DNA of 45,948 bases, from positions 1 through 45,948 of the IMG/VR virus record IMGVR_UViG_3300010160_000077; one strand, 5' to 3'. A program made the position numbers and the translations under genes. Under the pieces are notes generated by a model. The model saw only the letters and a program-made list of their open reading frames with translations, was not told the origin of the DNA and did no database searches. The DNA is from a virus. Within the stretch, counting starts at the first letter, position 1, and the number at the start of each line of letters is the position of its first letter. Of the stretch, positions 2,150 through 26,681 are shown piece after piece.

Positions 2150-2448
2150 TGGCTGCATACGATAGTACTAGTGCTTATTATACAACCGGCTACAGCCAGT
2201 TCTTTTTGGATACCATGACCAATCGGCCTATTCCCTTATTACCGGACGACTTGTCATTTGCTATCAATCTAACCTATCAGTACAGACCTGATTTGTTGGC
2301 CTATGATCTATACAGCAATCCAGGATTGTGGTGGGTGTTTTATCAACGCAACCCCAACACCTTGACCAAGCCGCCTTTGGATTTTGCTGTGGGCGTTGAA
2401 ATATTTCTGCCCAGGATAGCTACCTTGCAAACAGTGTTGGGATTCTAA
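2149..2448 (+). CDS. gp53: Baseplate wedge protein gp53
   Basis: A 99-residue protein in which YRPDLLAYDLYSNPGLWWVF, followed by an R-N-P segment and a closing VGVEIFLPR stretch, matches the gp53 family. Gp53 joins wedge subunits around the hub during assembly and ends in a LysM-like fold. T4 gp53 is 196 residues; this compact form is typical of marine T4-like phages. The start is supported by a strong AAGGAGGA at 2133-2140 and by a one-base overlap with the previous stop. The next gene begins one base after the stop, so translation is likely coupled. Confidence 0.85.
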   Translation: MAAYDSTSAYYTTGYSQFFLDTMTNRPIPLLPDDLSFAINLTYQYRPDLLAYDLYSNPGLWWVFYQRNPNTLTKPPLDFAVGVEIFLPRIATLQTVLGF

Positions 2449-2449
2449 C

Positions 2450-5589: not shown

Positions 5590-7104
5590 ATGGCTTTAGA
5601 TAATTTTCAACGCAGTACCGGAACACCCAACACCTTTGACCAAGATCGTGGCGGGTTACCAGGCTCCTCTGGCCCCTACATCGGCGAAGTGCGCAACAAC
5701 AACGATCCTACTCGTATGGGACGTCTGCAAGTGTACATTGAAACATTCGGAGGTCCTGACAAAAACAATCAAGATCTTTGGCGCACAGTAAGCTACTGTA
5801 CGCCATTTTATGGTGCTACACCCAAGGGCGGTAGTGCTGGAACTGGTACCTTTTTAGATGGCAACCAACAGAGTTACGGCATGTGGTTCACACCTCCTGA
5901 CATTGGCACACAGGTCTTGTGCTTTTTTGTCAACGACGATCCAGGTAATGGATACTATATAGGATGCTTGCCAGAAAATGGTATCACACACATGATCCCG
6001 GCTATTGGTGCGGTAGGTCAAGATCAAGCACAAACTCAAAATGCCATACAAGGCGAGTATCTAAGCAGTTCACCAAGGTTGCCGGTTACTGAAATAAACA
6101 ATGCACCCAGCAATCCTAAAACTAGCGAAAGTCCCACATTCTTCAACGAAAAGAAACCGGTGCACAGTTATGTGGCTGGTGTGTTATTTCAACAAGGCTT
6201 GAACAATGACACTGTTCGTGGCCCAATTGGTTCCAGTGCCCAGAGAGAAAGCCCAAGCAACTGCTATGGAATTAGCACTCCGGGTCGCGCTATCTATCAA
6301 AGCGGACTGGGTGACACCAACAATCCCAAGGCACTAGATCAACAAACGCTACAAGGCATTGCTGTGATTGGACGCCGGGGTGGACACAGTTTTGTCATGG
6401 ACGATGGAGCACTAAATGGATCTGATAATTTGGTCAGAATCAGGACCGCCAAAGGACATCAGATAACCATGAGTGATGACGGCAACTGTTTTTATATCTG
6501 TCATGCTAACGGACAGACCTGGGTCGAGCTTGGACAAGAAGGCACACTTGATGTTTACAGCACCAACAGTATAAACATGCGAACCGAAGGCACAATAAAT
6601 CTACATGCCGACGCAGATGTTAATATTTTTGCTGGCGGAAGCATGAATCTCAAAAGCATCAAAGGTACCAGTATACAAAGTGATGGAGATGCTGATCTGG
6701 CAGGCAAAGGTAAACTCAGCCTGTTTGGAGAAAGCAGCATGGCCATCAAGAGCGGTGGAGGACTGGCAATCAAGAGCGGTCTAGGCAGTTGGGCGTCAGA
6801 AGGACAACTCAGTTTAACTGGCAGCAAGGTCTTGCTCAACAGTGGTGGCGGACAGCCAGCAGACGCTCCTACTGCAATAACCAAATATCTAATGCCCGGC
6901 GTGGAATTTAATCCCAGCACTGGTTGGCAAACCAGCTCTACCGGTACTGAAAGTTGTTGTACCCGGGCACCCACACACGAACCGTATGCCTATCACAATC
7001 AAGGTGTATCTGTGCAGTCTTCAATTGTGCAACCGGGACAACCAAGTCCTCCGCCCGATGCAGCTGCTTTACCAGCTGGAGTGAGTATCACAAAAACATC
7101 ATGA
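5590..7104 (+). CDS. gp5: gp5-like baseplate spike, without lysozyme domain
   Basis: A 504-residue central spike protein. Residues about 28-100 form the OB-fold entry: GPYIGEVRNNNDPTRMGRLQ followed by V-Y-I-E-T-F-G-G, typical of gp5/VgrG proteins. Residues about 282-420 hold alternating short polar strands (AKGHQITMSDD, then repeated S-I-N-M, T-I-N-L and S-M-N-L patterns), the expected triple-stranded beta-helix needle. T4 gp5 is 575 residues and has a lysozyme domain between these parts. Here the intervening segment (about 100-280) has no recognisable lysozyme motif. The spike would pierce the outer membrane at the tip of the tail tube. The TGA overlaps the next ATG in an ATGA junction. Confidence 0.85.
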   Translation: MALDNFQRSTGTPNTFDQDRGGLPGSSGPYIGEVRNNNDPTRMGRLQVYIETFGGPDKNNQDLWRTVSYCTPFYGATPKGGSAGTGTFLDGNQQSYGMWFTPPDIGTQVLCFFVNDDPGNGYYIGCLPENGITHMIPAIGAVGQDQAQTQNAIQGEYLSSSPRLPVTEINNAPSNPKTSESPTFFNEKKPVHSYVAGVLFQQGLNNDTVRGPIGSSAQRESPSNCYGISTPGRAIYQSGLGDTNNPKALDQQTLQGIAVIGRRGGHSFVMDDGALNGSDNLVRIRTAKGHQITMSDDGNCFYICHANGQTWVELGQEGTLDVYSTNSINMRTEGTINLHADADVNIFAGGSMNLKSIKGTSIQSDGDADLAGKGKLSLFGESSMAIKSGGGLAIKSGLGSWASEGQLSLTGSKVLLNSGGGQPADAPTAITKYLMPGVEFNPSTGWQTSSTGTESCCTRAPTHEPYAYHNQGVSVQSSIVQPGQPSPPPDAAALPAGVSITKTS

Positions 7105-9027: not shown

Positions 9028-9402
9028 ATGACTACGTTTATTGGATTTAATACCATCAATCAAAACAAGTATTTTACTTTAACTGATTTTGAACTGATCA
9101 AAAGAGACTTGCTAAATGCTTTTAATATTAGACAAGGTGAACTGGTGGGCCGTCCTGCCTACGGAACTACCCTGTGGGACATGTTGTTTGAAAATCAAAC
9201 ACAAGATACTTTGCAATCAATGTACACTGAAATCCAGCGTGTAGCAGCCGGAGATCCTAGGATTTATATCAGCGCCCTAGAAGTATTCCCACAAGAAAAC
9301 GGCCTGTTGATACAGCTTGAGCTTACCGTAGTTCCAACCACAGACGCACAAAGATTGAGTGTTTTCTTTGATCAGACTCAGCGTGTAGCCACGTATGTTT
9401 AA
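9028..9402 (+). CDS. gp25: Baseplate wedge protein gp25
   Basis: A 124-residue protein with the complete gp25-like fold (named lysozyme-like but structural). Landmarks are LIKRDLLNAFNIRQGELVGR, PAYGTTLWDMLFENQ, IQRVAAGDPRIYISALEVFP and a closing beta strand. T4 gp25 is 132 residues, so it is full length. Gp25 clamps the gp6 ring and is needed to start sheath polymerisation. The conserved gp6 gene follows after a 45-base gap holding a late-type promoter element. Confidence 0.9.
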   Translation: MTTFIGFNTINQNKYFTLTDFELIKRDLLNAFNIRQGELVGRPAYGTTLWDMLFENQTQDTLQSMYTEIQRVAAGDPRIYISALEVFPQENGLLIQLELTVVPTTDAQRLSVFFDQTQRVATYV

Positions 9403-9447: not shown

Positions 9448-12400
9448 ATGGCTACAACTACAAGACAAACTGTAATATTTGGCGTCGAGGATTGGAAACG
9501 GATCTATCAAACCTATAGAGAAGCCGACTTTCAAAGTTATGATTTTGAAACACTGCGTAAAAGTTTTGTAGATTATTTGCGCCTGTACTATCCAGAAACT
9601 TTCAATGACTACATTGAAAGTAGTGAATTCATTGCCTTGCTTGACGTCATGGCTTTTATGGGCCAGGCACTGGCATTCAGAACAGACTTAAACACCAGAG
9701 AAAATTACCTAGACACAGCTGAACGTAGAGACAGCGTGATCAAGCTGGCCAATTTGGTCAGCTATACTCCGTTGCGTAATACCGAAGCAAGTGGTTATCT
9801 CAAAGTATTCAGTGTCAGTACCACAGAAAGTGTTTTTGACTACAATGGTATCAATCTTGCCAACCTCACTATAAACTGGGCTGATCCTACCAATCTTGAT
9901 TGGCAAGAACAATTTACCGTTATTATCAATGCCTCCTTGGTCAATACACAACGCTTTGGTCGCCCAGGTGCTAGCCAAGATATCCTTGGAGTTGGCACAC
10001 AAGAATACACTATCAATCTTGTTCCAGGGTTTTTACCAGTGATTCCATATACTGCCACAGTTGATGGAGTCAACATGCCTTTTGAAGTGGTCAACGCCAC
10101 CGCAGTAGGACAAGATTACATATACGAACCGCCGCCGTTGCCTATTGGCAGATTCAATGTTTTATTCCGTAACGATCAATTGGGCTTTGCTAGTGCCAAC
10201 ACCGGGTACTTTTTCTTGTTCAAGCAAGGTACGCTACAAAATCAAGACTTTAATTTGGCCGAAAGAATTACAAATCGTGCGGTCAATATAAACATTGAAG
10301 GCGTTAATAATACCGATGTGTGGTTGTATCAATTGGATAATGTGGGTAATATCAGCACTTTTTGGAGACCAGTGCAAAGTGTTTATGCAGCCGCAGTTGA
10401 ACAGTTGGCCGTAGGCACACAAAATATCTACAGTATTGCCAGTCGAGTAAATGATCAAATCACTTTGAATTTTGGTGACGGCATATTCAGTACTATCCCT
10501 GTTGGCACATTTAGAACTTATGTTAGAGCCAGCAATGGATTGACTTATATTATCAATCCGCAGGAAATGCAAAGCGTACAGATCCCCATCAGCTATGTGA
10601 GTCGTACTGGGCAAATTGAAACACTGACCTTCACTTGCGGAATTACTCAGCCAGTGACCAATGCCCAGTCTAGAGAAACCATTGCTGAAATCAAACAACG
10701 TGCTCCTGCACAATACTATACACAAAACAGAATGGTCAACGGCGAAGACTATAGTAATTTTCCATTTACACAGTACAACAGTATACTAAAAAGCACAGCG
10801 GTAAATCGTGCCAGCATTGGTACCAGCAGATATCTTGACCTAGTTGATGGTACAGGAAAATATTCCAGCACTAATATTTTTGCCAGCGATGGTGCCTTGT
10901 ATGAAAGCAATTTAACACCGGCATTTTTATTCAGTTGGCTCAGTATCAACGACATCAGCGATGTGGTATATAATCAACTCAATCCATTGTTGGCCAAGGC
11001 CGGTATGCAACAGTTTTACTATGCTAATTTTCGTCCAAGACCACAGCTGGCCTCGTATCAATATACTTGGCATCTCAGCACAGTTATAACAAACGAAGCC
11101 ACAGGCTATTTTGAAAACAGTGCAGGACAACCAGTTCCCATTGGTGAGTATGCCAGCAACAATGCCAAGTATATCACAGTTGGTAGCCTGGTAAAATTTA
11201 TTCCACCCAGTGGCTATTACTTTGATGCAGAGAACCGTTTGCAAGCAGGCTCAGCAACACAGCCAAATCAAAAAATGGTATTGTGGGCAGGTCCCACTGC
11301 GGTATATCTAGCAGGTATTGCAGACGGGCTAGGAAATTTACCCGACGGCACAGGTCCAGTGGTGTTGAATACCTATGTACCAAATGGTGCAATACCCGTA
11401 GAAGTTATTCCGTTATTTGTAACAGATATACCCACCAGTCTAAAACAAGATATTGTAAATCAAATTTATCAAAATCAAAATTTTGGTCTAGGGTATGATA
11501 ATCTTACAGCCACCTGGTACCTGATTACCAGCAGTAACCTAGACACAAATGCCGAATTCAGTTTAACCAACGCACAGAACACATCTGGCACCAATATTGA
11601 TGCCAGTTGGCTAATACAGTGTACCACCAATGGTGCAAACTATACTGTAATATCACGATCCTTGGATTATTTCTTTGGTAGTGTGGCAGAAACAAGATTC
11701 TTCTTTTACACCAGCGATCCAATTTATGACAGTCGCACTGGCACTGTGATTAGTGATTATGTAAACATACTCAAAATCAATTCAGAACCCGATACAAACT
11801 ATCCCTTGCCTGAAGATGCTAGATTGCCCATCATTGCTCAACCAGTCTTAACTGATGGACTCACAGATGACTTCCAGGTAGAAGTCAGTTTTGAAACCAG
11901 CGCCGGTGGAACTGTTCCTGTTGATCCAGACTTTTTTGACAATCTTGTGGCACCTGCAGTGAGTCCCAATAACAAATTGGTATTCTTCCAACAGACTGTG
12001 GACTTTGACAATTTACAAAGATATCTTTTGGTGCAAAATGGCATAGTCAACAGCGAGTATCCCACCCAGGACACAATATTGGTGGTGCTAGATCAATACA
12101 ACATAGGACAGGTATTCTATGCATACAATCAATATCTTACATATGATAATGGCCAACCTAGACCTATTACTGACCAAATTTTTTACACATTAGAATTAAA
12201 CAGCTCTGGTGTAAGAATACTCACAGTCAATAGTACTTTTGTAGCCAGAATTGGTCGACAAGATTTGTATTTTCAATACAGACACAACAGTCCCCTGACC
12301 AATCGTATTGACCCAGGTAGCACAAATATCATTGATGTATATGTGGTCACTAATGAATATTATACCTCCTATCAAAACTGGCTAAGAGATGTTACCGGCA

Positions 12401-12897
12401 CAGTGTCAGAACCCAGTCCGCCTACTATAGATCAATTAAACACGGCCTACGCCGGACTTGATACCTACAAGATGATTTCAGACAATTTGATTTTGAATTC
12501 CGTCGACTTCCAGCCCTTGTTTGGTCGCAAAGCTGATGTTGCACTACGGGCCACTATCAAAGTTATCCAGAACGGCCAGAGCACAGCCAGCAATAGTGAA
12601 ATACGCAATCTTGTGGTGGCCACAATGGAAACTTATTTTGATTTGGCAGCATGGAACTTTGGAGATACATTTTACTTCAGTGAACTTGCGGCCTATATAC
12701 ATCAACAGATTGGAGACATTGTCAGCAGCGTGGTCCTGGTTCCCTTAGATCCACAAAAGAGCTTTGGTGACTTGTATGAAATAAGATCTGCTCCAAATCA
12801 AATATTTGTCAATGGTGCCACAGTCAACGATGTAGAAGTTATTACCGCACTCACCAGCACAAATTTACAAACTGCACCTGGTAGTGGAGTAATTTAA
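9448..12897 (+). CDS. gp6: Baseplate wedge protein gp6
   Basis: The 1149-residue protein opens with the conserved gp6 N-terminus of T4-like phages: a W-K-R-I-Y segment, FDYLRLYYPETF-like FVDYLRLYYPETFNDYIESS, LLDVMAFMGQALAFRTDLN and YLDTAERRDSVIKLANLVSY. The C-terminus (about 1010-1130) has RKADVALRATIKV and a helical FSELAAYIHQQIGDIVSSV segment, which also fit the baseplate_J/gp6 class. Gp6 dimers with gp7 and gp53 make the inner iris ring that links the wedges around the hub. T4 gp6 is 660 residues; the extra length lies in beta-rich middle insertions (about 300-1000). Its stop shares one base with the following start. Confidence 0.85.
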   Translation: MATTTRQTVIFGVEDWKRIYQTYREADFQSYDFETLRKSFVDYLRLYYPETFNDYIESSEFIALLDVMAFMGQALAFRTDLNTRENYLDTAERRDSVIKLANLVSYTPLRNTEASGYLKVFSVSTTESVFDYNGINLANLTINWADPTNLDWQEQFTVIINASLVNTQRFGRPGASQDILGVGTQEYTINLVPGFLPVIPYTATVDGVNMPFEVVNATAVGQDYIYEPPPLPIGRFNVLFRNDQLGFASANTGYFFLFKQGTLQNQDFNLAERITNRAVNINIEGVNNTDVWLYQLDNVGNISTFWRPVQSVYAAAVEQLAVGTQNIYSIASRVNDQITLNFGDGIFSTIPVGTFRTYVRASNGLTYIINPQEMQSVQIPISYVSRTGQIETLTFTCGITQPVTNAQSRETIAEIKQRAPAQYYTQNRMVNGEDYSNFPFTQYNSILKSTAVNRASIGTSRYLDLVDGTGKYSSTNIFASDGALYESNLTPAFLFSWLSINDISDVVYNQLNPLLAKAGMQQFYYANFRPRPQLASYQYTWHLSTVITNEATGYFENSAGQPVPIGEYASNNAKYITVGSLVKFIPPSGYYFDAENRLQAGSATQPNQKMVLWAGPTAVYLAGIADGLGNLPDGTGPVVLNTYVPNGAIPVEVIPLFVTDIPTSLKQDIVNQIYQNQNFGLGYDNLTATWYLITSSNLDTNAEFSLTNAQNTSGTNIDASWLIQCTTNGANYTVISRSLDYFFGSVAETRFFFYTSDPIYDSRTGTVISDYVNILKINSEPDTNYPLPEDARLPIIAQPVLTDGLTDDFQVEVSFETSAGGTVPVDPDFFDNLVAPAVSPNNKLVFFQQTVDFDNLQRYLLVQNGIVNSEYPTQDTILVVLDQYNIGQVFYAYNQYLTYDNGQPRPITDQIFYTLELNSSGVRILTVNSTFVARIGRQDLYFQYRHNSPLTNRIDPGSTNIIDVYVVTNEYYTSYQNWLRDVTGTVSEPSPPTIDQLNTAYAGLDTYKMISDNLILNSVDFQPLFGRKADVALRATIKVIQNGQSTASNSEIRNLVVATMETYFDLAAWNFGDTFYFSELAAYIHQQIGDIVSSVVLVPLDPQKSFGDLYEIRSAPNQIFVNGATVNDVEVITALTSTNLQTAPGSGVI

Positions 12898-15800
12898 TGG
12901 CCAACAATGTACGCTCAGTAGACTTTCTTCCAGAGATATTCCAGACTCCAGTCAACCAACAGTTTTTGGCCGCAACACTGGATCAGTTAATACAAGAACC
13001 AGCATTTAAAAAGAGTCAAGGATTTATTGGTCGCCGTATTGGTCCTGGAGTAAATGCTAATGATCGTTACGTGGTAGAACCCACTGCGGTACGCAACAAC
13101 TATCAACTGGAGCCCGGTGTCTGTCAGATCAATCCTGACAATACTCGTCAGGTCATTGATGCTATTACCTATCCTGGAATCAATGATGCCCTGGCTTTAC
13201 AAGGCGCAGTGGTCAATAACCCATCTGATCTGTACAAGAGTGATTACTATACTTGGGATCCATTTGTTGACTTTGACAAGTTTATAAATTATGCACAATA
13301 TTACTGGGTTCCGGGTGGCCCAGACGCAGTCACAGTCAGTGCCACAGGAGTTCCTACATTTCAAAACTACACAGTAACTCGCAACAGCAACGGATACTAT
13401 ACATTTTCTGGAGTGCGCGGCAACAACCCAACACTTACTTTAGCCCGTCAAGGATCTTATAATTTTAACATAGCACAAAATGATCAAGTTACCGTACAGT
13501 ATCGTGTGACCAACAACGGTACCACCGCCTGGACCATCAACTACGACAGCAATCCAACATTGAGCCTGGTGCGTGGCAATACCTATATATTCAATTTGTC
13601 GTTGTCGGCACCATTGCCGTTTTATATCAAAACAGAACTCAGCTTTGGTTCTATTAATCAATACAACAATGGTGTCTCTCGTAATGGCTCCGTTACTGGA
13701 CTAATCACATTTACAGTTCCGCAAGATGCTCCGGATACCTTGTACTATTGCAGTTCAACTGAATTCAACATGCGTGGGCAATTTGACATTGTTGATGCTG
13801 TGGATGGAACAGGTCCTGATTTTTGGATACAAAGCAGTCCGGGAATAAATGGTGTGATACCTGCTACTCCCAACATTACTAGCAGAGATGTATATGGTGT
13901 TGTCAATAACGGCATTGACCTTGGTATTGTAACTTTTAATACTCCTACAGCAACAGAACAAAGTTTTTATTATAACCTGCCGCAACTTGGATCAATTCCA
14001 AATCAACCTCCTGGCACAGTAGATCTAGTCGTTAATCTTGGTTTCAATCAGATCAACAATATATATGTGGATACGTTTTTAGACAGCAATCCCAATGGCA
14101 TAGACGGAATAACCAATCTCAATGGACGTACTGTCTTTTTTCCAAATTCCAGCAGCTGGATAGTAAATGGCCAATATGATGTTCCACCTCAGCCATATGA
14201 CGCAGCTACATTTAGTAATCTAGAAGAAATAACAAATCCTGCTGTGCAATACGGTATATGGTTGATAAATTATGTGCCAGACGTAGACGGGAGATTATAC
14301 ATATCTCTCACTAGTATTTTGTCAGTGCCCAATTTGACACAGTGTAGCGTATTGTTTGGAACCCAATATGCCAGCACTAGGTGGTATAAAAACAGTTCTG
14401 GTTTCTTTGTAACAATGCCGGCGTTGACTGCTGTGCAAGACATATTGTATTATCAAGATAGTCAAGATCCAACCATGATCGGAGTAATAAAATTAGTAGA
14501 TGTTACTGTTGATGCTGAACTCAAAATAGATGATATAATTGGCAAAACTAATTATACCAGTCCCAATGGGGTGACATTTACCAATGGACTAAAAGTTTTA
14601 TTCACAGGCATAACAGTGCCAGACACCTATTCGGGCAATGAATACTATGTAGAAGGCGTTGGAACTGCTATACAACTATTGCCAGTTACAGATTTTGTAA
14701 CTCCTGAAACTTATATTCCAGGATCTCCTGTGGCGCCTGATTATCTTACGATTAATAGAGCCGGCCCAGATCTAAATCCTTGGTCAAGAAGCAATAGATG
14801 GTTTCATGTAGATGTGGTTGAACAAACAGCTCAATACAACTCAGACACAAATCCTCCGGTGCTAGATCAAGCATTTCGGGCCAAGCGCCCGATATTGGAA
14901 TTTAGAGCAGGAACTAGATTATTTGACTTTGGAACGCAAGGTTTGCAACCGGTCAACATTGTGGACTTTTCTCAAGAGGACGCCTTGACAACAGTTGAAG
15001 GCCAAGAGGAATTTATTACCGACGGTTATACAGTAGTTCAAGGTAGTACTATAATTTTTGCTGGTGATGAAGATCTTGCAGTTCGTAATAAAGTTTATCA
15101 AGTTGAATTTATTACACCAGACACAATACCTCCGCTGATCCCAGAACCAATTATCAATCTAGTGCCCATTGCAACTGTGGTCTATGATCAAACAACTGTG
15201 TGCCTGGATGGTGATACACTCACCGGTGTCAGTTTTTACTTTGACGGAGTCAACTGGCTTCAAACACAACAAAAAACTTCAGTAAATCAAGCTCCACTGT
15301 TCAACATCTACAATGCCAGTGGCGTAAGTTTTGGCAATCAATCTACCTACCCAAGTAGTAACTTTGTTGGTAGTAAGTTATTCAGCTATGCTGTAGGTAC
15401 TGGATCAAATGATGTAGTTTTAGGATTTCCATTATCCTATCTTAATCTTTCCAACATTGGTGACATAGTATTTGATAACAATTTGTACAGCGACAGTTTT
15501 AATTACACATCCAACAGCCAAGGATTTACCACAGCACTTAGCACAGGGTTTGTAAGACAGTATCAAGATCGAATTGTTTTCCAAAGAGAAATTGGCTGGC
15601 AAGATGCTGCGGTACAAAGTCAAATTAGACAACAGTTTAGATTTGCCTACGATGGCCGCCCACTACAATTAGACCTAGCAGTCAACGCCAATACCGTAGT
15701 TCCAGCCATACAGATATTTGTCAATGCCAACTTCTTAGAACCCTACGATACCGCAACAGGTGACTACACCTATTCGTATACTACAACGGCTACAACCACA

Positions 15801-18800
15801 ACAATCACTCTGCGTCGGCCTTATGTGGTTGGTGATCTAGTAGAAATACAAGTGCTAAGTGATCAAATAAGCGCCACAGCATTTTATCAAGTGCCCGTCA
15901 ACTTAGAAAACAATCCATTCAACGGCAACAGCAACCAGTTTACTCTGGGCACTGCAAGAAATCATTACAGTACCATTGGACAAAATTTAATCAATCTTGA
16001 AGGACCAGTGATTGGTAACAACAACAGTCGCGACCTTGGCAACATTGTTCCTTATGGTCTACAGATACTGCAACAAAGTGCTCCGCTTACCTTGGCCGGA
16101 TATTTTTTACGCAGTGAAGAATACAATATTTTTAATGCTTTACAGTTTAACAGCCGAGAGTATATCAAGTTTAAATCATTATTATTAAACACTTCAATAA
16201 CAAACGACTTTGTCAATTTAACTATACCTCAAATTGTAGATCAGTCAATTGCTATTATCAATGCAGGCGACACCAGCATCAGTCCTTTTTACTGGAGTGA
16301 TATGTTGCCCACTGGAACCACAGTGGCATCGAACTCGACCACTGTAACACCAATTACCATAGCAAGATTTAACACTGTACAGACTTACGATTTTACTACG
16401 TCTAATTACTTGGGGCTGTTGGTGTATGTAAACGATCGATTACTCGCTCGTGGCGTGGAATATGTGGTTGGAGATGGAACTCCTACCTTGACTATTTTAA
16501 TTCCGTTAGTGGTAGGAGATGTAGTTACTATCAACGAATACAATCCTACTTACGGAAATTTTGTACCAAACACTCCTACCAAGCTAGGTTTGTATCCTAA
16601 ATACATTCCGCGTATTTACATCAGTACTGACTATGTGAGACCCACGCCAGTAATACAAGGACACGATGGCAGCATTACTGTAGCATTTGGTGACATTAGA
16701 GATCAGGTCTTGTTAGAATTTGAAAACAGAATTTATAGTAATCTTAAAACAGATGGCAATCCTGTTCCAATCACTGTGGAACAAGTGTTACCAGGTTTCT
16801 TCCGCACAACAGATTATACCGAAGCCGAAATAACCAAGATCCTAGGCGAAGACTTTTTAATCTGGGTGGGTCTAAACAAACTAGATTATACCGCTCAAGA
16901 TTACTTGACCAATAACCCATTTACCTACAACTACAGCACAGCTGGAAACAGGATCAACAATGCGGTACTAGATCAAGGAGCCTGGCGCGGCATCTATCGT
17001 TATTTTTACGATACAATGACACCAAACACTACTCCATGGGAAATGTTGGGCTTTACTGAAAAACCCATCTGGTGGGAAGATCGTTATGGTCCAGTTCCGT
17101 ATACCAGTGATAACCTGGTGCTATGGGGCGATCTTGAACAAGGACTTGTGGCAGATCCAGTAGCACCATACATCAAACCCAACTTTGCCAGACCTGGGCT
17201 GACCACAGTCATTCCAGTCAACAGCCTAGGAGAACTACTACCGCCACTTGAAAGTGTAGTGGGATTGTACAATCCCAATGACTTCCGCAAGAGCTGGACA
17301 GTAGGCGACGGTGGTCCAGTTGAAGCGTCATGGTGGATGAGTTCAAGTTATCCATTTGCAGTAATGCGCCTGTTGGCTCTAACTAGACCAGCTGAATTTT
17401 TTGCCTTGTTTGCTGATCGAGATCTTTATCGTTACAATGCTGAACTAGAACAGTATCTCTACAACAATCGTTACAGACTTGATGGCAACGGATTAGAAAT
17501 CTATGGCAATGGTGTCAGCAAAGCCAGCTATATCAACTGGATCATTGACTACAATCAACAACGTGGTATCAACAGCACAACAGCCCTGACTACTGATTTG
17601 GCCAATCTTGATGTACGGTTATGTTATCGTATGGCAGCCTGGACTGATCAACAATATCTTGAAGTGTATCTTGAAAAGTCCAGCCCAGACAGTCAAAATG
17701 AATCTTTACAGATTCCTCCAGAAAGTTACAATCTTTTAGTTTATCGAGATCAACCCTACGCACAAATTACCTACAGTAGTGTGGTAGTTGAAACTGTGGA
17801 AAACGGTTGGGCAGTTTATGGGTATGGCAGTTACCAGCCATACTTTCCAATCATAGTCAGCGCAGTAAACGGAAAATTACAAACGGTATCAGCCGGTGGT
17901 GCCACAGTACAAGTGCCAGCACAGTACACCAACAATGTGACCAACATTCCATATGGATATGTGTTTACTAATCGTACCATGATGGTGGACTTTTTATTAA
18001 GTTATGGACAGTATCTTGAATCGCAAGGTATGACCTTTACTGAATTGGAAAATGGTTACACACTAAATTGGCCACAAATGGCTCAAGAGTTCTTGTACTT
18101 TAGTCAACAAGGCTGGCAGACCGGTACCTTGATCAATCTTAATCCGGCTGCAGGGCAACTCACAGCATATCGATTGGAATCAGTCGTTGACGACATTTAT
18201 AGTTATAGTCCTGAAAATCAGTTACTGGATCAAAATCGTCAGACAATACCCACAAGAGATTTGATCATACAGCGTGAAGGAAATAGCTTTAAGATAAATC
18301 CAGAACCTACAGCCAATCAGGCCATCAGTTTCTTGAACTTACGGTTTACTGATTATGAAAATATTGTAATCTTTGACAATGTCGATATATTCAATGATTT
18401 GATTTATGATCCAGTAACTGGAGCAAGACAAAGCAGAATGTATCTAAATGCATTTAATACAGTTGAATGGAACGGCACTCTTGATGCAAAAGGATTTATC
18501 CTAAATCAAAACAATGTCAAAGCATGGAATCCAAATTTGAGATATACCAAAGGTGACATTGTACGCTATAAAAATACCTATTGGCAAGCCAGTGGGCTGG
18601 TACAACCAAAGACCAAATTTGATTACAATGACTGGCTCAAAAGTAACTATGCTCTGATCGAGCAAGGACTATTGCCTAACCTGGCCAACAAAGCTGACCA
18701 ATTGGCCAACACTTACAACACACAAACTGCTAATTTAAACAACAACAATGATTTGCTGGCCTATAACTTGATTGGATTTACACCACGGCAGTACATGGCC

Positions 18801-21800
18801 GATCTCAATCTTGATGATGTTACACAGGTCAATCTTTATCAACAGTTTATCAAAGTCAAAGGAACCACAAGAGCCACAGACTTGTTTACTCGTGTAAACT
18901 TGACCAAAGAAAGCGGTAACTATCAGATTTACGAAACCTGGGGTGTGCTGATAGGAACATATGGTGCCAACAGTAATAGAAGTTATTTTGAAATTAACCT
19001 CAATGAAGCCAAGTTGACTGGAAGCCCGAGCACAGTACAAATTATTCTGCCAGGGCAAACAAGTCAGGCCAATCAAACTGTGCTATTGAACAATCTCTGG
19101 AGTGAAAGCTACAATATCACATCAACTGATATATTACCAACCATATATCCATCCAGCCAGAACACAGCATTGCCATCAGCTGGATATGTCAACATCGACG
19201 ATGTGGATATAACGGTTTATACCTTGGATGACCCATCTGCTATTGCCGCCAATCTTAACACAGTAGGAACTGGCACAAGTATTTGGGTAGCTAGAGATAA
19301 TCCTTATAACTGGAATATCTATAGATGCACTCAAATTCCTGGAAAACTGACCCAGATAACAGACAACTTGAACAGTACCAGTATTGCACAGTTCAGCCAG
19401 ATTACAACTCTAGCTGTTGGTGACTTGATTATTGTACGCTATTTTGCCGACGGAGTAGATGGTGTATACCGTGTGCTAGGACGACCATCACCGACCAGTA
19501 TCATAATTGCCTATGCATTTACCAATAACAATCAAACCACCTTGACTGGCAATGGCCTAGGATGGTTTTTACAAACAATGAGAGTCAGTCAGGCCAGTGA
19601 CGTTGCCACGTTACCATATGCAAATGCATTGGTGCCTGGTGCTCGGGCCTGGGTCGATGACAACGGATCCGGCCATTGGGAAGTATTAGAAAAACAAGCG
19701 CCTTTCACCTTGACTGAAAGTAAAAATGCTGTAACTCCTCAAACCAATAGTTTGTATGGAACCAGCATTGGACAATCAACCAATCATTATAGTTTACTAG
19801 TAGGTAGTCCAAGTGCCGCTGATGGTGGCGCAGTATACACCTATCGTCGAATCGCGTCAGCTGGCAACGCTGGCACATACGCCAACAACATTGTATTATC
19901 ATTGCCAGCTGAAGATGTAGCTGGATATGGAAATAGTCTTGAATGGGGCGATAACAATTGGGCAGTCATTGGTGCCAGTACCAGCCGCAGTGGTCAAGGA
20001 TATGCTTCTGTGGTATATCAAATTCCTGGCAGTAACAATTACGAGCAAACACAACTATTAACAGCCTTGAGTAGTAATGCAGTTACAACCAATGCTGTAG
20101 CATTTGGCTCGGCAGTAGCAATGAGCAAAGATGAAAGATGGATGTATGTTAGTGCACCAGTTGAAAATTTAGTTTATGCTTACGGCAAGGTAGAAATCCC
20201 AGAACAGTCAGTGACTTACACAACCGATGGCACTAGCACAGCATACGCCTGGTCACCTGACTTGATTATCGACCCAGCATATCCTGAACAATTAGCGGTA
20301 ATTCTTGACAATCAACCACAATCTTATCCAGCTGATTATACCATACCCTTAGATAGCTCTAACGTGGTGTTTGCTACAGCACCGCCAGCTGGTGTTCAGT
20401 TAGAGATCGCTCGACGAGCTTTCCAATCTTTTGACGGTACTGGATCGGGTGATCCTACCTATGATTTACAACCATATCTATATACAGCCACCGTTGGTAA
20501 TACTGCGACAAATATCAATTCATGTACTATTACTGTTGACGGAATAATTCAGCGTCCTTGGATAGATTATGTGTTTTCTGATGATGGAAATGTAACTTTT
20601 AATTCAGGATCAGAACCTGCCAGTGCCGCTGTAATTAATGTGACTGCTGGCACATACTGGCAGTATGTTACAACTCTTCCTACTGCTGGTCTGTCATTGT
20701 CAGCCAACGCTGTTTTTGGCACCAGCCTAGCAACCAGCACTGACGGAAGAAGTATAATTGTTGGTACCCAAAACGACACAGCCGTAAATGCCGCAGGCAA
20801 TACTGTGACAGCAGGATCGACCTATGTGTTTGATCGTAGTGTAGTTAGATATGTGGTAACAGATACCGCTCAGACCATTTATGCCATTCCTGGCACGTCA
20901 ATTGATCCAATCTCGGTACTACACAATGATGTATTTTTAACCAACGAGGCCCAATATGTGCCAGGACAGTTCTCTGTGGTTGGGTCCAACATTGAATTAG
21001 CAAGTTCTGTTACACTGACCATTGGAGACAGTATTGAAATTGAAACCAATGAATTCCAGTTTGTACAAAAAATAGTTTCTCAGGCTCCACAAAATGGTGC
21101 ACGATTTGGAAATGCTGTGGCCATGTGTTCTAATAATTGTAGTCTTTATAGCGGAGCTCCTAGCAACACCAATGTCATTGAACAAGATGGTAGTGTTGAA
21201 CGACAAGCCAATCAAAGTAGACTGTATGGCGTGACAGTCAGCACTATTGCCAACCCAACCCTGACTCCTGGTACTACAATTCGTATCAACAACATTGAAG
21301 TTGCTGTTCCTAACAGTCCTAACAATACTGTGTCTGGATTAGCAACAGCTATCAGTCCTGTAGCATGGTCTATTACAAAACAATATTATATCAATGATCG
21401 AGTGATTTATAATTATGTTTGTTATATTGCTACCGCATCAAGTTCAGAGAAGGTACCTAGTTCTTCAAGCGCCTACTGGGACGCATCATTTGTCATACCC
21501 AATGTTCAAGCCTCATTGACTGCTGATTTGGAATTCACCGGGGATGGTATTACAAAAATCTTTTTTGTAGGAACGGTGTATAGTACCGCTGGATCAACCC
21601 CGGTAGTTTATGTCAATAATGCATTAAGCTCTGGCTACACCTATAATAACACCTCTCAACAAATTGAATTTGTATCTGCTCCAGCAATAGGAGTTAAAAT
21701 AACAGTGGTCACAGGACGATTGATTTTGTCAACTATTAACAATTCATCGGCCCCAGAATTTAACAAACTCACAGTATTACCTGGAGTGGGCGGAACAGGA

Positions 21801-24800
21801 TCAGCATTTGCGGAACTGGGATTTAATACTTTTATCTATACACAAACACTATACAGTCCAAATCCAGTTGGATACAGTTCTTTTGGTAGTGCAATCAGTA
21901 TCAATACTGACAGTGTCAACATCGTGATAGGTGCACCAAACGGCAGTGTGTATGAAGCCATGAGCTTTGATGGTGGCGAAACCATTGTTGACGATAACAG
22001 CACGTTCTTTAGTAATCCGGTATCCAACTGTGGTGTAGCGTATACATTTGATTATTTGCCAAGTGCTCAATCATCAGTGTCAAACACAGGACAATTGGTA
22101 TTTGGTCAACAAATTTATCAATTGCCTCGACTGGATACTTTTACTTTTGTCGGTGATGGAACCACAAGAACTTATAATATAAACTCTGTTTATAATACTA
22201 TTACAAATCCGCCACAAGTTTATTTAAACAATGAGCTCTTAATCCTAGGACCAGACACTTACGACTACGCTTATTATTCTTCTACTTATTTTGTTGTGTT
22301 TGCAACTGCACCTAGTACGAATTCTCTTATTTTTATTGAAACAGGACAGGCTGGCACAAGTATTGCAGATCGATTTGGCACAGCAGTAAACTATGTGGAT
22401 GGACGTCTGATTGTGGGTGCGCCTGGTGTAGATCTTGGAGCTAGTAGTAACACAAACTACGGGTCAATGTCTATATTTGATAATAATAATAATTTGCCAA
22501 GTTGGGCAGTAATACATGAACAACAGCCAGTGGTCAACATTGAGCTGATGAATAGTGTATACAGTTTTGATAAACTGTTAAACAGCACTCAAACCTATTA
22601 CGACTTTATTGATCCACTACAAGGCAAGATACTGGGAGTGGCTGCTCGCAATATCAATTACATTGGTGCAGTAGATCCAGCCAATTACAATACAGGAACC
22701 ATACACAACAACGGCACTGCCTGGGGATCTGCTCATGTGGGAGAAATTTGGTGGGACACTGACACTGTGAGATTTATCAATCCCAACCAAGATGATATTG
22801 TGTACGCAAGTAAACGCTGGGGCCAGATATTTCCAGGTAGTCGTGTAGACATTTATCAATGGATTCAAAGTGACGTTCCTCCTGCTAGTTATATTGGCAT
22901 CGGAACTCCATTAAGTGCCACTAGTTATACGGTGTCATCGATACTGACTGCCAATGGAGTGTTTGCCAGCTATTACTATTATTGGGTACGGGGAATCAAC
23001 ACTGTAGACACAGCCAATGGAAAAAATTTAAGCACCACAGCCATTGCCAGTTATATTGCCAATCCACTTGGCAGCGGTCTACCTTATATAGCCGCACTAA
23101 ATTCTAGTACTGTGGCACTATACAATGCGGTAGGATTAATCAGTGCTCAAGATACAATTTTACACATTGAATATGAACGTCAGATTGGTGGTGCTAATGC
23201 TAACATCCATACTGAATATCAATTTGTAAATGAAGGCAAAGCCGACAGCTTTGTTACTGATTCAATCTATCAAAAATTACAAGACAGTTTGTGTGGAGAA
23301 GACGTATCTGGTAATTTGGTTCCAGATCCATTCTTGAGTCCAGGTCTGCGTTACGGAGTACAATTCCGTCCACGGCAGAGCATGTTTGTCAACAGATATA
23401 CAGCATTACAAAACTATCTTGGCCGAGCTAATACTATACTGGCACAATATCCTATCTCAGAGTTACGCACTTTCAATCTGTTGAACAGCAGTGAAAGTAT
23501 TCCAAATGCCACAACAGCAACAGCTACAGCGGCCACTATCTCTGGAAACATATTGACTGTGGCTGGCACAATCACTGGAGTGTTTGCCTTAGGACAAACC
23601 ATAAGCGGCACCGGCATTCCTGGTCTAGTCACAATCTTGGATTATGGAACCGGAACTGGCGGAGAAGGAACATATACAATCAGTGCCAGTCTCTCTATCA
23701 CAGCACGCACTATAACTGGTACTACTGGTTATAATCAAGTTGTTTCTAACTTGACTGTGTTAGGTTATCAAAATCTTGCTGCTGTCAATCTAGGATATCG
23801 TTATCTGGTCTTGACTGACAGCAGCCAAGGTGGACGATGGACCATATACGAAGTGGTCACTGACCCCTTGACAGACATCACTGCAACTCGAACTACCTTG
23901 TTGGTTCGCATACAAAATTACGATACATCGTTATATTGGAGTTACATCAACTGGAATCAGCCTGGATACAACAGTTCAATACAGCCTGTTGCTCAGGTTG
24001 CCATCACAGCCGATCTACAAGCATTAAGTATCAATCAGGCACCTATTGGCAGCAGTGTGCAGGTCAATAACAACGGCCAAGGAAAATATGAAATTTATTT
24101 AAGAATTGACACTGGGTGGGAACGTGTGGTACTCGAAGATGGCACTATTGCTTTTGATGCTGTGCTATGGAATTATGCACTTGGTCCTTATGGTTTTTCG
24201 GCCGAAGTATATGATGCACAATACTTTGACCAGGCTCCTACAATTGAAACTAGAAAAATTATTCAGGCTATTAATCAAGAACTGTTTACTAATGAGTTTT
24301 TGATATATCGCAATGAACTATTGATATTGATGTTCAAATATATCTACAGTGAATTTACAGCCCCAGTCTGGTTAATGAAAAGCAGCTTTATCAATGTGGA
24401 TCATAAACTGCGTGCCCTGGAGGCGTATCAGCTGTATCAACAAGACAATCAAACTTTTGTGGAACAATATCTACAAGAAGTAAAACCCTATCATGTGCAA
24501 ACTCTAGCATTTAATTTGGTCTATGATGGATTGGATCTCTATCCTGGATCAATGAGCGACTTTGACGTACCAGCCAGGTGGGATAACACAGTTGAAATCC
24601 CACAGTTTGTAAGTCCGGTGTTAACCCCTTACACCGACTCTGTGAGCTTGGTTGAATCATTTGTCAGTGACACCGCTCCAAATGCAGCTATATGGACAGA
24701 AACTCCTTGGCAGTCGTGGTTCAATAATTATACCTTGAGCATTATCGGTGCAACTGTAGTAACTGGTGGATCTGGATATAATGTAGTTCCTGAAGTGGTG

Positions 24801-26681
24801 TTTGGAACCGAATGGCAAGCTGATACGGTTTATACTATTGGACAACAAATTTTTTATGTTAGTGGTCCAACCAATAATTTATACACGGTCACTGCATCTG
24901 GAACCACAGGAAATATTCCTCCATCATTCACGTCCGGGTCAGCCCTAAACGGAACAGCTACCTTGTCCTGGTTTGGCAATGGTGCCAGTGGGTATGCCAC
25001 ACTCAGTGGCACAGGTGGTGTACAATCAGTGATTGTGAGCGACCCTGGGTCAGGCTACACGACAACAGCCGCTATAACATTTGTGGGTGGTAATGGAACT
25101 GGCGCACAAGCTGTGCCAATCATGACCAATCAGTTGGTAAGAAATTTTACTATTACAATTCGATTTGATCGTTATCAATATGAAACTACCATATACGAAT
25201 GGCAAGCCAATTACAGTTATGCGCAAGGAGATCGGGTACGTTGGCACAACCTAGTTTGGTCTGCCAACAGTGCTGTTTCAAGTGCCACATTTAACATAGA
25301 CCAATGGACAGATATCACTATTCCTGTGGACGCTGTTGACATTGTGGCTGGTAATACCTATACCATAACTTCTTTAGGAACAGTCACAAGTCCAACCAAT
25401 TTTACTTTGATTGGTGCATCTCAAAACATAGTTGGAACACCGTTTATTGCAACAGGAGCAGGCACAGGAACTGGAACCGCAACTATTTTATTAAGTGGTG
25501 TAGATCGTACCATGGGCTATTATACTCCTACTCCAAACATGCTGGGACTCAGTTTGCCATTGTTGATTGCAGGTGATCATTATCCAGGTGTGCAAGTAAT
25601 GGCTCCAAATTTTGATCAAGATATAATAGCTGATCCTGACATACTTGATGCTGTGTATTCCAGTTCGTATCTTGACACATTCCTGGGAACACGTCCAACT
25701 GATATCAATGTTGATGGCGGTGGCTACATTGATGTATTCAGCAGTTATGCTCCAGAAGAACTGGTGCCCGGTAGCGAATTTGATACCTTGGATTTCCGTG
25801 TATATACCACCGGCGGTCCAACCAACGGAGCTGATTTTAGAATATTCCAGGACATGCGTGGATTACAATTGACCTATATCATCAATGATGAGACTACTAC
25901 TGAATTGGCTCAAGACCTAGGCACCACCGATGACATAATTTATGTTGACAATGCTGGCGCTTTGGCTGTTCCAAATTTGGCTTCAAATCGATGGGGCGTG
26001 TTGACTGTTGGTGCTGAAAGAATTATGTACCGTGAAATTGACCTGGCAAACAACACAGTTAGTGGATTGTTGAGAGGAACTGCTGGTACGGCTATCACGG
26101 CTCACATCGATGGAGCAACAGTCTACAACATGGGCACTGATAATTTGTTTAGCCAACAATATCAAAATTACATTGTGGAAACCACCACCGTGGCCAATGG
26201 ATCCACTACAGTATTTGCTGCTCCAAACATCACTCTAAGCACATCAACTACTGCCTGGGTAATTGGTAACACCTACACATCTGGGGATATTGTCATCAAC
26301 AGCGGCAGTTTTTACAGTGCCAAACAGAATGTACCAGCTGGCACAGCAATCGCCAACACTGATTACTGGCAACCACTTGCGGTAGCTGTAGAAGTTTATG
26401 TGGGCGGACTACGAATAACAGGAGCAACTACATGGGTGATTGGTAATACCTACTCATTTGAAGATATAGTTGTCAACAGCGGCAGTTTCTACAGTGCCAA
26501 ACAGAATGTACCAGCTGGCACAGCAATAAGCAATACTGATTACTGGCAACCACTCTCCACACCTGCTGAAGCTTATATTGTAACCAATCAAGCCCCAGTA
26601 TCAGTCACACTGAATACTGCACCACCAGATGGCGTTGCTGTAACTATATTAGTTCGCAGAGGAACCTGGATAGACTATTAA
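12897..26681 (+). CDS. gp7: Giant gp7-type baseplate wedge protein, 4594 residues
   Basis: The start overlaps the gp6 stop by one base and GGAG at 12886-12889 supports it. Residues 1-150 form a conserved opening (FLPEIFQTPVNQQFLAATLD, QGFIGRRIGPGVNANDRYVV, YYTWDPFVDFDKFINYAQYY). I know this opening from very large wedge/structural proteins of T4-like marine phages that take the place of gp7. T4 gp7 is 1032 residues. Recognisable later parts are: wedge-like segments around 1040-1400; seven FG-GAP-like repeats between 2284 and 3193; six W..Y..GD.V modules near 1876, 2823, 3972, 4101, 4452 and 4511; a helical segment at 3784-3880; and a G-L-L-R-G-T-A-G-T block near 4400. The frame is open throughout with no sign of a frameshift. 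The gp7 name rests mainly on position and the N-terminus. Confidence 0.7.
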   Translation: MANNVRSVDFLPEIFQTPVNQQFLAATLDQLIQEPAFKKSQGFIGRRIGPGVNANDRYVVEPTAVRNNYQLEPGVCQINPDNTRQVIDAITYPGINDALALQGAVVNNPSDLYKSDYYTWDPFVDFDKFINYAQYYWVPGGPDAVTVSATGVPTFQNYTVTRNSNGYYTFSGVRGNNPTLTLARQGSYNFNIAQNDQVTVQYRVTNNGTTAWTINYDSNPTLSLVRGNTYIFNLSLSAPLPFYIKTELSFGSINQYNNGVSRNGSVTGLITFTVPQDAPDTLYYCSSTEFNMRGQFDIVDAVDGTGPDFWIQSSPGINGVIPATPNITSRDVYGVVNNGIDLGIVTFNTPTATEQSFYYNLPQLGSIPNQPPGTVDLVVNLGFNQINNIYVDTFLDSNPNGIDGITNLNGRTVFFPNSSSWIVNGQYDVPPQPYDAATFSNLEEITNPAVQYGIWLINYVPDVDGRLYISLTSILSVPNLTQCSVLFGTQYASTRWYKNSSGFFVTMPALTAVQDILYYQDSQDPTMIGVIKLVDVTVDAELKIDDIIGKTNYTSPNGVTFTNGLKVLFTGITVPDTYSGNEYYVEGVGTAIQLLPVTDFVTPETYIPGSPVAPDYLTINRAGPDLNPWSRSNRWFHVDVVEQTAQYNSDTNPPVLDQAFRAKRPILEFRAGTRLFDFGTQGLQPVNIVDFSQEDALTTVEGQEEFITDGYTVVQGSTIIFAGDEDLAVRNKVYQVEFITPDTIPPLIPEPIINLVPIATVVYDQTTVCLDGDTLTGVSFYFDGVNWLQTQQKTSVNQAPLFNIYNASGVSFGNQSTYPSSNFVGSKLFSYAVGTGSNDVVLGFPLSYLNLSNIGDIVFDNNLYSDSFNYTSNSQGFTTALSTGFVRQYQDRIVFQREIGWQDAAVQSQIRQQFRFAYDGRPLQLDLAVNANTVVPAIQIFVNANFLEPYDTATGDYTYSYTTTATTTTITLRRPYVVGDLVEIQVLSDQISATAFYQVPVNLENNPFNGNSNQFTLGTARNHYSTIGQNLINLEGPVIGNNNSRDLGNIVPYGLQILQQSAPLTLAGYFLRSEEYNIFNALQFNSREYIKFKSLLLNTSITNDFVNLTIPQIVDQSIAIINAGDTSISPFYWSDMLPTGTTVASNSTTVTPITIARFNTVQTYDFTTSNYLGLLVYVNDRLLARGVEYVVGDGTPTLTILIPLVVGDVVTINEYNPTYGNFVPNTPTKLGLYPKYIPRIYISTDYVRPTPVIQGHDGSITVAFGDIRDQVLLEFENRIYSNLKTDGNPVPITVEQVLPGFFRTTDYTEAEITKILGEDFLIWVGLNKLDYTAQDYLTNNPFTYNYSTAGNRINNAVLDQGAWRGIYRYFYDTMTPNTTPWEMLGFTEKPIWWEDRYGPVPYTSDNLVLWGDLEQGLVADPVAPYIKPNFARPGLTTVIPVNSLGELLPPLESVVGLYNPNDFRKSWTVGDGGPVEASWWMSSSYPFAVMRLLALTRPAEFFALFADRDLYRYNAELEQYLYNNRYRLDGNGLEIYGNGVSKASYINWIIDYNQQRGINSTTALTTDLANLDVRLCYRMAAWTDQQYLEVYLEKSSPDSQNESLQIPPESYNLLVYRDQPYAQITYSSVVVETVENGWAVYGYGSYQPYFPIIVSAVNGKLQTVSAGGATVQVPAQYTNNVTNIPYGYVFTNRTMMVDFLLSYGQYLESQGMTFTELENGYTLNWPQMAQEFLYFSQQGWQTGTLINLNPAAGQLTAYRLESVVDDIYSYSPENQLLDQNRQTIPTRDLIIQREGNSFKINPEPTANQAISFLNLRFTDYENIVIFDNVDIFNDLIYDPVTGARQSRMYLNAFNTVEWNGTLDAKGFILNQNNVKAWNPNLRYTKGDIVRYKNTYWQASGLVQPKTKFDYNDWLKSNYALIEQGLLPNLANKADQLANTYNTQTANLNNNNDLLAYNLIGFTPRQYMADLNLDDVTQVNLYQQFIKVKGTTRATDLFTRVNLTKESGNYQIYETWGVLIGTYGANSNRSYFEINLNEAKLTGSPSTVQIILPGQTSQANQTVLLNNLWSESYNITSTDILPTIYPSSQNTALPSAGYVNIDDVDITVYTLDDPSAIAANLNTVGTGTSIWVARDNPYNWNIYRCTQIPGKLTQITDNLNSTSIAQFSQITTLAVGDLIIVRYFADGVDGVYRVLGRPSPTSIIIAYAFTNNNQTTLTGNGLGWFLQTMRVSQASDVATLPYANALVPGARAWVDDNGSGHWEVLEKQAPFTLTESKNAVTPQTNSLYGTSIGQSTNHYSLLVGSPSAADGGAVYTYRRIASAGNAGTYANNIVLSLPAEDVAGYGNSLEWGDNNWAVIGASTSRSGQGYASVVYQIPGSNNYEQTQLLTALSSNAVTTNAVAFGSAVAMSKDERWMYVSAPVENLVYAYGKVEIPEQSVTYTTDGTSTAYAWSPDLIIDPAYPEQLAVILDNQPQSYPADYTIPLDSSNVVFATAPPAGVQLEIARRAFQSFDGTGSGDPTYDLQPYLYTATVGNTATNINSCTITVDGIIQRPWIDYVFSDDGNVTFNSGSEPASAAVINVTAGTYWQYVTTLPTAGLSLSANAVFGTSLATSTDGRSIIVGTQNDTAVNAAGNTVTAGSTYVFDRSVVRYVVTDTAQTIYAIPGTSIDPISVLHNDVFLTNEAQYVPGQFSVVGSNIELASSVTLTIGDSIEIETNEFQFVQKIVSQAPQNGARFGNAVAMCSNNCSLYSGAPSNTNVIEQDGSVERQANQSRLYGVTVSTIANPTLTPGTTIRINNIEVAVPNSPNNTVSGLATAISPVAWSITKQYYINDRVIYNYVCYIATASSSEKVPSSSSAYWDASFVIPNVQASLTADLEFTGDGITKIFFVGTVYSTAGSTPVVYVNNALSSGYTYNNTSQQIEFVSAPAIGVKITVVTGRLILSTINNSSAPEFNKLTVLPGVGGTGSAFAELGFNTFIYTQTLYSPNPVGYSSFGSAISINTDSVNIVIGAPNGSVYEAMSFDGGETIVDDNSTFFSNPVSNCGVAYTFDYLPSAQSSVSNTGQLVFGQQIYQLPRLDTFTFVGDGTTRTYNINSVYNTITNPPQVYLNNELLILGPDTYDYAYYSSTYFVVFATAPSTNSLIFIETGQAGTSIADRFGTAVNYVDGRLIVGAPGVDLGASSNTNYGSMSIFDNNNNLPSWAVIHEQQPVVNIELMNSVYSFDKLLNSTQTYYDFIDPLQGKILGVAARNINYIGAVDPANYNTGTIHNNGTAWGSAHVGEIWWDTDTVRFINPNQDDIVYASKRWGQIFPGSRVDIYQWIQSDVPPASYIGIGTPLSATSYTVSSILTANGVFASYYYYWVRGINTVDTANGKNLSTTAIASYIANPLGSGLPYIAALNSSTVALYNAVGLISAQDTILHIEYERQIGGANANIHTEYQFVNEGKADSFVTDSIYQKLQDSLCGEDVSGNLVPDPFLSPGLRYGVQFRPRQSMFVNRYTALQNYLGRANTILAQYPISELRTFNLLNSSESIPNATTATATAATISGNILTVAGTITGVFALGQTISGTGIPGLVTILDYGTGTGGEGTYTISASLSITARTITGTTGYNQVVSNLTVLGYQNLAAVNLGYRYLVLTDSSQGGRWTIYEVVTDPLTDITATRTTLLVRIQNYDTSLYWSYINWNQPGYNSSIQPVAQVAITADLQALSINQAPIGSSVQVNNNGQGKYEIYLRIDTGWERVVLEDGTIAFDAVLWNYALGPYGFSAEVYDAQYFDQAPTIETRKIIQAINQELFTNEFLIYRNELLILMFKYIYSEFTAPVWLMKSSFINVDHKLRALEAYQLYQQDNQTFVEQYLQEVKPYHVQTLAFNLVYDGLDLYPGSMSDFDVPARWDNTVEIPQFVSPVLTPYTDSVSLVESFVSDTAPNAAIWTETPWQSWFNNYTLSIIGATVVTGGSGYNVVPEVVFGTEWQADTVYTIGQQIFYVSGPTNNLYTVTASGTTGNIPPSFTSGSALNGTATLSWFGNGASGYATLSGTGGVQSVIVSDPGSGYTTTAAITFVGGNGTGAQAVPIMTNQLVRNFTITIRFDRYQYETTIYEWQANYSYAQGDRVRWHNLVWSANSAVSSATFNIDQWTDITIPVDAVDIVAGNTYTITSLGTVTSPTNFTLIGASQNIVGTPFIATGAGTGTGTATILLSGVDRTMGYYTPTPNMLGLSLPLLIAGDHYPGVQVMAPNFDQDIIADPDILDAVYSSSYLDTFLGTRPTDINVDGGGYIDVFSSYAPEELVPGSEFDTLDFRVYTTGGPTNGADFRIFQDMRGLQLTYIINDETTTELAQDLGTTDDIIYVDNAGALAVPNLASNRWGVLTVGAERIMYREIDLANNTVSGLLRGTAGTAITAHIDGATVYNMGTDNLFSQQYQNYIVETTTVANGSTTVFAAPNITLSTSTTAWVIGNTYTSGDIVINSGSFYSAKQNVPAGTAIANTDYWQPLAVAVEVYVGGLRITGATTWVIGNTYSFEDIVVNSGSFYSAKQNVPAGTAISNTDYWQPLSTPAEAYIVTNQAPVSVTLNTAPPDGVAVTILVRRGTWIDY
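26256..26555 (+). repeat. Tandem 177-bp duplication in the gp7-type gene
   Basis: A 59-codon unit is repeated in frame: copy one begins at 26256 and copy two at 26433. Both code for W-V-I-G-N-T-Y, then NSGSFYSAKQNVPAGTAI and DYWQPL. DNA identity is highest over the NSGSFYSAKQ part, which suggests a recent duplication or gene conversion. Confidence 0.9.

Follow-up and report, generated by a model that had tools for sequence, protein, structure and literature searches.

The window analysed here, the complete 45,948-nt virus record IMGVR_UViG_3300010160_000077 of IMG/VR, encodes on its plus strand a giant baseplate protein of 4,594 amino acid residues (12897..26681). Within this wedge protein, a structural model together with fold and profile matches places a seven-bladed FG-GAP or integrin-type beta-propeller (residues 2268–3206; 19698..22514, plus strand). 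Small modules resembling the docking domains of tail fibres and tailspikes are inserted in it, and the whole may act as a peripheral adhesion scaffold. A first-pass annotation, made from the sequence alone, had proposed a seven-bladed integrin-like propeller at 19749–22480. This interval lies in frame within the single open reading frame (ORF) 12897–26681, and the opposite strand is dense in stops. The limits of the domain required a small correction: it starts slightly earlier, at about residue 2268 with a likely ring-closing strand, and ends at about residue 3206. The model indicates that the integrin-alpha-type propeller is an independent domain, and this inserted domain explains much of a protein annotated merely as virion structural protein.

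The seven FG-GAP segments on which the proposal was based start at residues 2287, 2344, 2403, 2607, 2737, 2996 and 3160, all in frame. Their assignment rests on this in-frame location, on conservation in an alignment of 97 sequences and on the count of a strict pattern. On the plus strand they comprise motif 1 (YGTSI...VGSP, residues 2287–2305; 19755..19811), motif 2 (YGNSL...IGAS, 2344–2361; 19926..19979), motif 3 (FGSAV...VSAP, 2403–2421; 20103..20159), motif 4 (FGTSL...VGTQ, 2607–2625; 20715..20771), motif 5 (FGNAV...SGAP, 2737–2755; 21105..21161), motif 6 (FGSAI...IGAP, 2996–3014; 21882..21938) and motif 7 (FGTAV...VGAP, 3160–3176; 22374..22424). The strict pattern [FY]G-x-[SA]-[VILM] occurs seven times in the 4,594-residue protein and always inside the proposed interval. 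Shuffled versions of the whole protein contained 1.2 such motifs on average and 6 at most (2,000 shuffles), and shuffled versions of the 910-residue stretch 0.34 on average and 4 at most (5,000 shuffles). The Pfam family FG-GAP_2 (PF14312) matches residues 2285–3194 with 41.2 bits against a cut-off of 23 (expectation value (E) 1.9e-10); some single repeats fall below this cut-off, the whole domain above it, and the relatives score between 39.6 and 74.8 bits. Across the 97 sequences the first position of the seven FG pairs is F, Y or W in 92–100% and the second is G in 97–100%. Once four inserted blocks are taken out, the motifs are spaced by 48–89 residues. A marine relative free of inserts (L179) has seven uninterrupted repeats, 57–79 residues apart (FG-GAP_2, E 9.9e-17).

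An AlphaFold2 model of residues 2200–3223, calculated with 96 homologues, reached a mean predicted local distance difference test score (pLDDT) of 89.2 and a predicted template modelling score (pTM) of 0.88; only the last of the inserted blocks (insert IV) was modelled poorly. In a VIA-align search, integrin alpha4 was matched with a Z-score of 40.7 at 2.8 Å over 365 residues, spanning model residues 69–1007, and integrin alpha5 with a Z-score of 38.1 at 2.8 Å, with 372 of 452 residues aligned (chain residues 1–452). All of the 50 best VIA-align matches listed were integrin alpha subunits. Foldseek also finds integrins; its first row is a tail protein of cyanophage A4, which owes its likeness at least in part to a fibre-type module. 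With sequence information alone, the domain profile retrieved integrin alpha-M at E 5.5e-5; a single-sequence phmmer search against the PDB gave nothing relevant, so that a profile was needed for this match. The integrin calcium motif DxDxDGxxD was absent from every blade of the 97 sequences, its sole matches preceding the first blade. A short N-terminal strand (residues 2271–2276; 19707..19724, plus strand), assigned by DSSP at model positions 72–77, probably closes the ring. This closure is read from the full-length integrin alignment, which starts at integrin residue 1 (model residue 69), and we infer that the strand pairs with blade 7. Structure prediction and a fold search had been suggested by the first-pass annotation as the check on its proposal; they yielded a high-confidence model that matches integrin alpha propellers over the full length of the latter, and insert-free relatives with exactly seven repeats agree with it.

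Four blocks, all on the plus strand, interrupt the propeller. According to the model strands, inserts I, II and III sit in the strand 3–4 loops of blades 3, 4 and 5, respectively, and insert IV lies between blades 6 and 7. The G-D-G-x-T modules described earlier as lying between blades therefore exist, but three of the four inserted blocks are inside blades and one is between them. Insert I (residues 2430–2585; 20184..20651) consists of two tandem modules resembling the N-terminal domain of T7 gp17 and the XD domains. It is found in 84 of the 97 rows and is missing in a compact clade; it holds two modules in the window and, judged by length, has room for three or four in other relatives. Among 30 insert I homologues, ten reach PF03906, the N-terminal domain of the T7 tail fibre, at E ≤ 0.1 (best E 6.2e-9), and insert I of the window itself scores 14.2 bits, under the curated cut-off of 25.2. 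A separate model of insert I (pLDDT 90) matched residues 187–331 of the CBA120 tailspike TSP4 (Foldseek E 1.2e-5) and T7 gp17 (7boz, Z 7.7; 7ey9, Z 8.2 at 2.0 Å over 68 residues). The insert I profile also matches a K1 capsule depolymerase (E 2.2e-5). The inserted modules are thus predicted to have the T7 gp17 N-terminal or XD fold. The domains XD2 and XD3 of CBA120 and T4 bind other tail proteins and are documented docking modules (PMC8825819).

Insert II (residues 2652–2718; 20850..21050) is present in 96 of the 97 rows and weakly resembles the first module of insert I (E 0.003). Insert III (residues 2772–2979; 21210..21833) is larger, and a segment of it occurs in nearly all relatives. In 4 of 21 homologues its core gives a match to PF07196, the flagellin hook IN motif, with a best E of 2.6e-5; the match was not found in the window's own insert III segment nor in that of the relative L038. 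Two elements are nested within insert III: a segment at residues 2821–2864 (21357..21488), present in 9 of 97 rows, and a GDG module at residues 2876–2939 (21522..21713), present in 49 of 97. The former matches CBM_5_12 with an E of only 0.64, and a chitin-binding nature is not claimed for it. Insert IV (residues 3076–3150; 22122..22346) is a GDG module unique to the phage of the window (0 of 96 homologues). Its best matches are the blade-5 modules of sister phages (E 6e-12), and the closest sequence within the window is the GDG module of insert III (E 1.8e-9 to 2.7e-9). Because insert IV matches the blade-5 modules and insert II resembles insert I, the G-D-G-x-T modules are regarded as copies of one recurring family.

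Over the full-length wedge core, the best cultured relatives of the giant protein are found in PA5oct, Atu_ph07, Phosso, SCTP-2, Vibrio phage 2.275 and 121Q, all of them jumbo phages. These six align with the window protein up to about residue 2050–2170 and again from about residue 3199. The sequence between the conserved flanks is unrelated and comprises about 93 residues in 121Q, 175 in Vibrio phage 2.275, 250 in PA5oct and 400 in SCTP-2; Atu_ph07 and Phosso carry about 1,520 residues of other sequence at the propeller site. In none of the six site stretches was an FG-GAP match found, and the presence of the same propeller in these wedge homologues was therefore rejected. When the propeller region was searched with tblastn in isolate phages, nothing was hit at E 1e-5, and up to E 10 the matches were confined to modules. 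By these alignments, the propeller occupies a variable site of the wedge protein. In Atu_ph07 (L005) and Phosso (L009) the site (residues ~1660–3190) is rich in GxGY..P repeats and resembles parts of a cyanophage giant protein. The LamG-like look of the SCTP-2 slot was noticed by eye, had no Pfam match and is not claimed.

Among environmental loci with both flanks, 209 of 218 score with the propeller profile and nine do not, in a sample biased to queries near the window. Trees built from the wedge core place the rows with a propeller to one side of a single supported branch. Its support was 100/99 in a carefully built tree (19 rows) and 97 by the Shimodaira–Hasegawa-like approximate likelihood ratio test (SH-aLRT) in a quick tree of 75 rows, the latter including three short sequences on long branches; both trees are unrooted. 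The core trees are compatible with a single origin, and the propeller may have entered the wedge protein once. The extracted cores of L101 and L140 measure 943 residues against the usual 737, a sign of a boundary error or of an extra insertion.

Compared with the relative L014, identity amounts to 78% in the wedge core, 81% in the part following the propeller, 66% in the blades and 52% in insert I, and the same order of divergence is seen in L013, L053 and L015. In these comparisons, the propeller and its inserted modules diverge faster than the flanking protein. In blade 6, the FDxxxT.FDxxxT.F loop that joins strands 2 and 3 (residues 3024–3038; 21966..22010, plus strand) retains its FD, T, FD and T positions in 88–95 of the 97 rows. 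It is one of the best-conserved points of the domain, is present in the marine and L075 lineages too and is a candidate functional site.

The giant ORF occupies the gene position of T4 gp7, directly after a gp6-like gene. The latter encodes a baseplate wedge protein (9448..12897, plus strand; PHROG 10646, E 3e-279; PHROG 219, E 1e-21) whose stop codon overlaps the start codon of the giant ORF at position 12897, the two genes following each other as in T4. It is preceded by a gene for a gp25-like baseplate wedge protein (9028..9402, plus strand; PHROG 43, E 7.6e-13) and, further upstream, by a hub/lysozyme-like gene (5590–7104). The wedge core of the giant protein matches the profile PHROG 10938, giant virion structural protein, with an E of 1.1e-291 (972 bits), and its homologue in PA5oct, gp355, is recorded as a virion protein found by mass spectrometry. 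Similarity to T4 gp7 was undetectable with hhalign using an 8-member profile (probability 0.1%, E 0.61), and homology to gp7 was rejected on this account. The earlier description as a baseplate wedge protein is upheld by the gp25- and gp6-like neighbours and the virion homologue; "gp7-type" is a label for the gene position only. The same wedge core, with 100% identity, is located on two contigs longer than the 45,948-nt record, and relatives of the giant protein occur on contigs of up to 344 kb. An assignment of the host from four metagenome-bin contigs was unusable, the taxa being mixed. Near its end, the giant ORF contains a tandem direct repeat (26241–26576; 159 nt, 82% identical) that encodes a repeated CBM5/12-like segment. 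CBM_5_12-like segments were also noted at 18522–18587 (residues 1876–1897) and at two more places in the protein, with an E of 1.4e-5, just below the Pfam cut-off.

From the computed features, that is, the seven repeats, the predicted fold, the site, the one-branch distribution and the module family, we infer exposure, docking and a role in adsorption. With a probability of roughly 0.58, the propeller serves as an adhesion scaffold at the periphery, bearing modules for fibre docking or surface contact. The N-terminal strand would close the ring so that both ends of the domain meet, and the domain would then stand out from the wedge as a rigid platform, with strand 3–4 loops displaying small modules of the kind that docks fibres and tailspikes, as in the N-terminal domain of T7 gp17, XD2 and XD3 of CBA120 TSP4 and T4 gp10. 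Such modules could keep fibres or spikes attached to the baseplate or contact the host surface directly, and by gaining or losing them, or copying them from one loop to another, the phage could change its attachment while leaving the wedge as it is. Several points weigh against this scaffold. The XD modules of TSP4 and gp10 act as trimers. Module Z-scores of 7–8 lie in a range that general likeness among small beta-sandwiches can also reach, and the faster divergence may reflect just a weaker constraint on an exposed domain. A more speculative version, which we put forward only tentatively, describes the propeller as an adhesion cartridge that can be exchanged: an integrin propeller of the cellular type would have been captured once by the wedge protein, and its loops would then have collected and copied fibre-docking modules. 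If true, such a cartridge would allow loop-by-loop switching of the fibres or hosts engaged by the baseplate, unlike the swapping of fibre genes.

The main competitor of the adhesion scaffold assigns binding to the propeller face itself, as the primary receptor- or glycan-binding site, in line with the suggestion of the first-pass annotation. The same has been proposed for phi11, whose receptor-binding domain is a five-bladed propeller in which a GlcNAc pocket is presumed; phiKZ gp131C, located at the periphery of the baseplate, is a further proposed receptor-binding domain (PMC4901313). The faster divergence of the propeller relative to the flanking wedge protein and the CBM_5_12-like segments of the same giant protein also fit a binding face. 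However, no ligand site was identified, the blades are devoid of integrin-type calcium motifs, and a single loop of blade 6 is among the most conserved spots of the domain, where a host-specific pocket should rather be variable. Such phages usually bear their receptor-binding tips on separate fibres, and the inserted modules are at least as similar to fibre-docking as to binding domains; we judge a receptor-binding face to be rather unlikely. The clade-wide conservation of the blade-6 FDxxxT loop would fit a fixed protein contact and with it a purely structural role, in which the propeller is a spacer that makes the wedge larger or stiffer and touches only other baseplate proteins; the embedding of the propeller in a wedge protein and the common use of beta-propellers as protein-contact platforms point the same way. 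Yet related wedge proteins manage without a propeller, with as little as ~93 residues at the site in 121Q, and loops that tolerate large inserts which come and go suggest a free surface on at least one face, so that a mere spacer seems improbable, more so than a binding face. Short motifs can arise randomly and single repeats may miss the Pfam cut-off, but compositional chance or an artefact without a real seven-blade domain is opposed by the whole-domain Pfam score and the conservation of all seven positions, and is in practice refuted by the integrin fold match with its Z-score of 40.7.

The likeness to the integrin alpha propeller extends to seven FG-GAP blades in the same order and to the N-terminal strand, which aligns where the integrin propeller begins; the structural matches reach Z-scores of about 37–41 at 2.6–3.0 Å, with 17–21% sequence identity. 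As in alpha-I integrins, domains are inserted in propeller loops. In integrins the alpha-I domain follows blade 2 and precedes blade 3, whereas the phage inserts are mostly in strand 3–4 loops. In contrast to integrin alpha, the phage blades contain no DxDxDG calcium motif. The phage propeller occupies the middle of a baseplate protein and appears to have no legs (thigh and calf domains), membrane anchor or beta-subunit partner, features for which no individual searches were made. The inserted modules compare by fold and profile matches with XD2 and XD3 of CBA120 TSP4, T4 gp10 and the N-terminal domain of T7 gp17; those are trimers at the N-termini of fibres and spikes, whereas the modules of the window are single copies in propeller loops.

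Two other phages encode giant proteins with FG-GAP_2 repeats. In Synechococcus phage S-MbCM6, FG-GAP_2 occurs in a protein of 7,022 residues whose gene immediately follows gp25 and gp6; none of the proteins of this phage is matched by the wedge core of the giant protein, and orthology was rejected. The S-MbCM6 protein, annotated as gp8 (L176:14780-35848), has an FG-GAP_2 match with an E of 6.7e-40 as well as laminin-G and reelin-like matches. The repeats of Sinorhizobium phage Phosso belong to gp108, a gene other than the propeller-less wedge homologue of this phage. Phosso gp108 (L174:1114-12192) is a separate protein of 3,692 residues with 24 FG-GAP_2 stretches (E 1.5e-172) and laminin-G-like ends, and its repeats perhaps form several propellers in a row.

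Propellers are known in receptor-binding or peripheral baseplate proteins of phages, namely phi11 gp45, PRD1 P2 and phiKZ gp131C (PMC4901313; PMC6115969). The phi11 gp45 propeller is likewise a phage tail beta-propeller, but it is five-bladed and part of a separate receptor-binding protein. PhiKZ gp131C is a seven-bladed beta-propeller at the baseplate periphery (PMC4901313) and is encoded by a separate gene; it was not among the 50 VIA-align matches listed, which says nothing on its relation to the propeller of the window. Neither gp45 nor gp131C is described as an insert of a wedge protein with fibre-type loop modules (PMC4901313), and the literature searched contained no paper linking FG-GAP with phage and baseplate. 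While propellers of phage baseplates are known already, from few structures, what appears to be new is that a propeller of the integrin type is set into a wedge protein and carries docking-type modules in its loops. Such a propeller is now found in more than 200 environmental jumbo phage contigs. The propeller and its modules offer a concrete target for studies of the way in which giant phages assemble and diversify their attachment apparatus.

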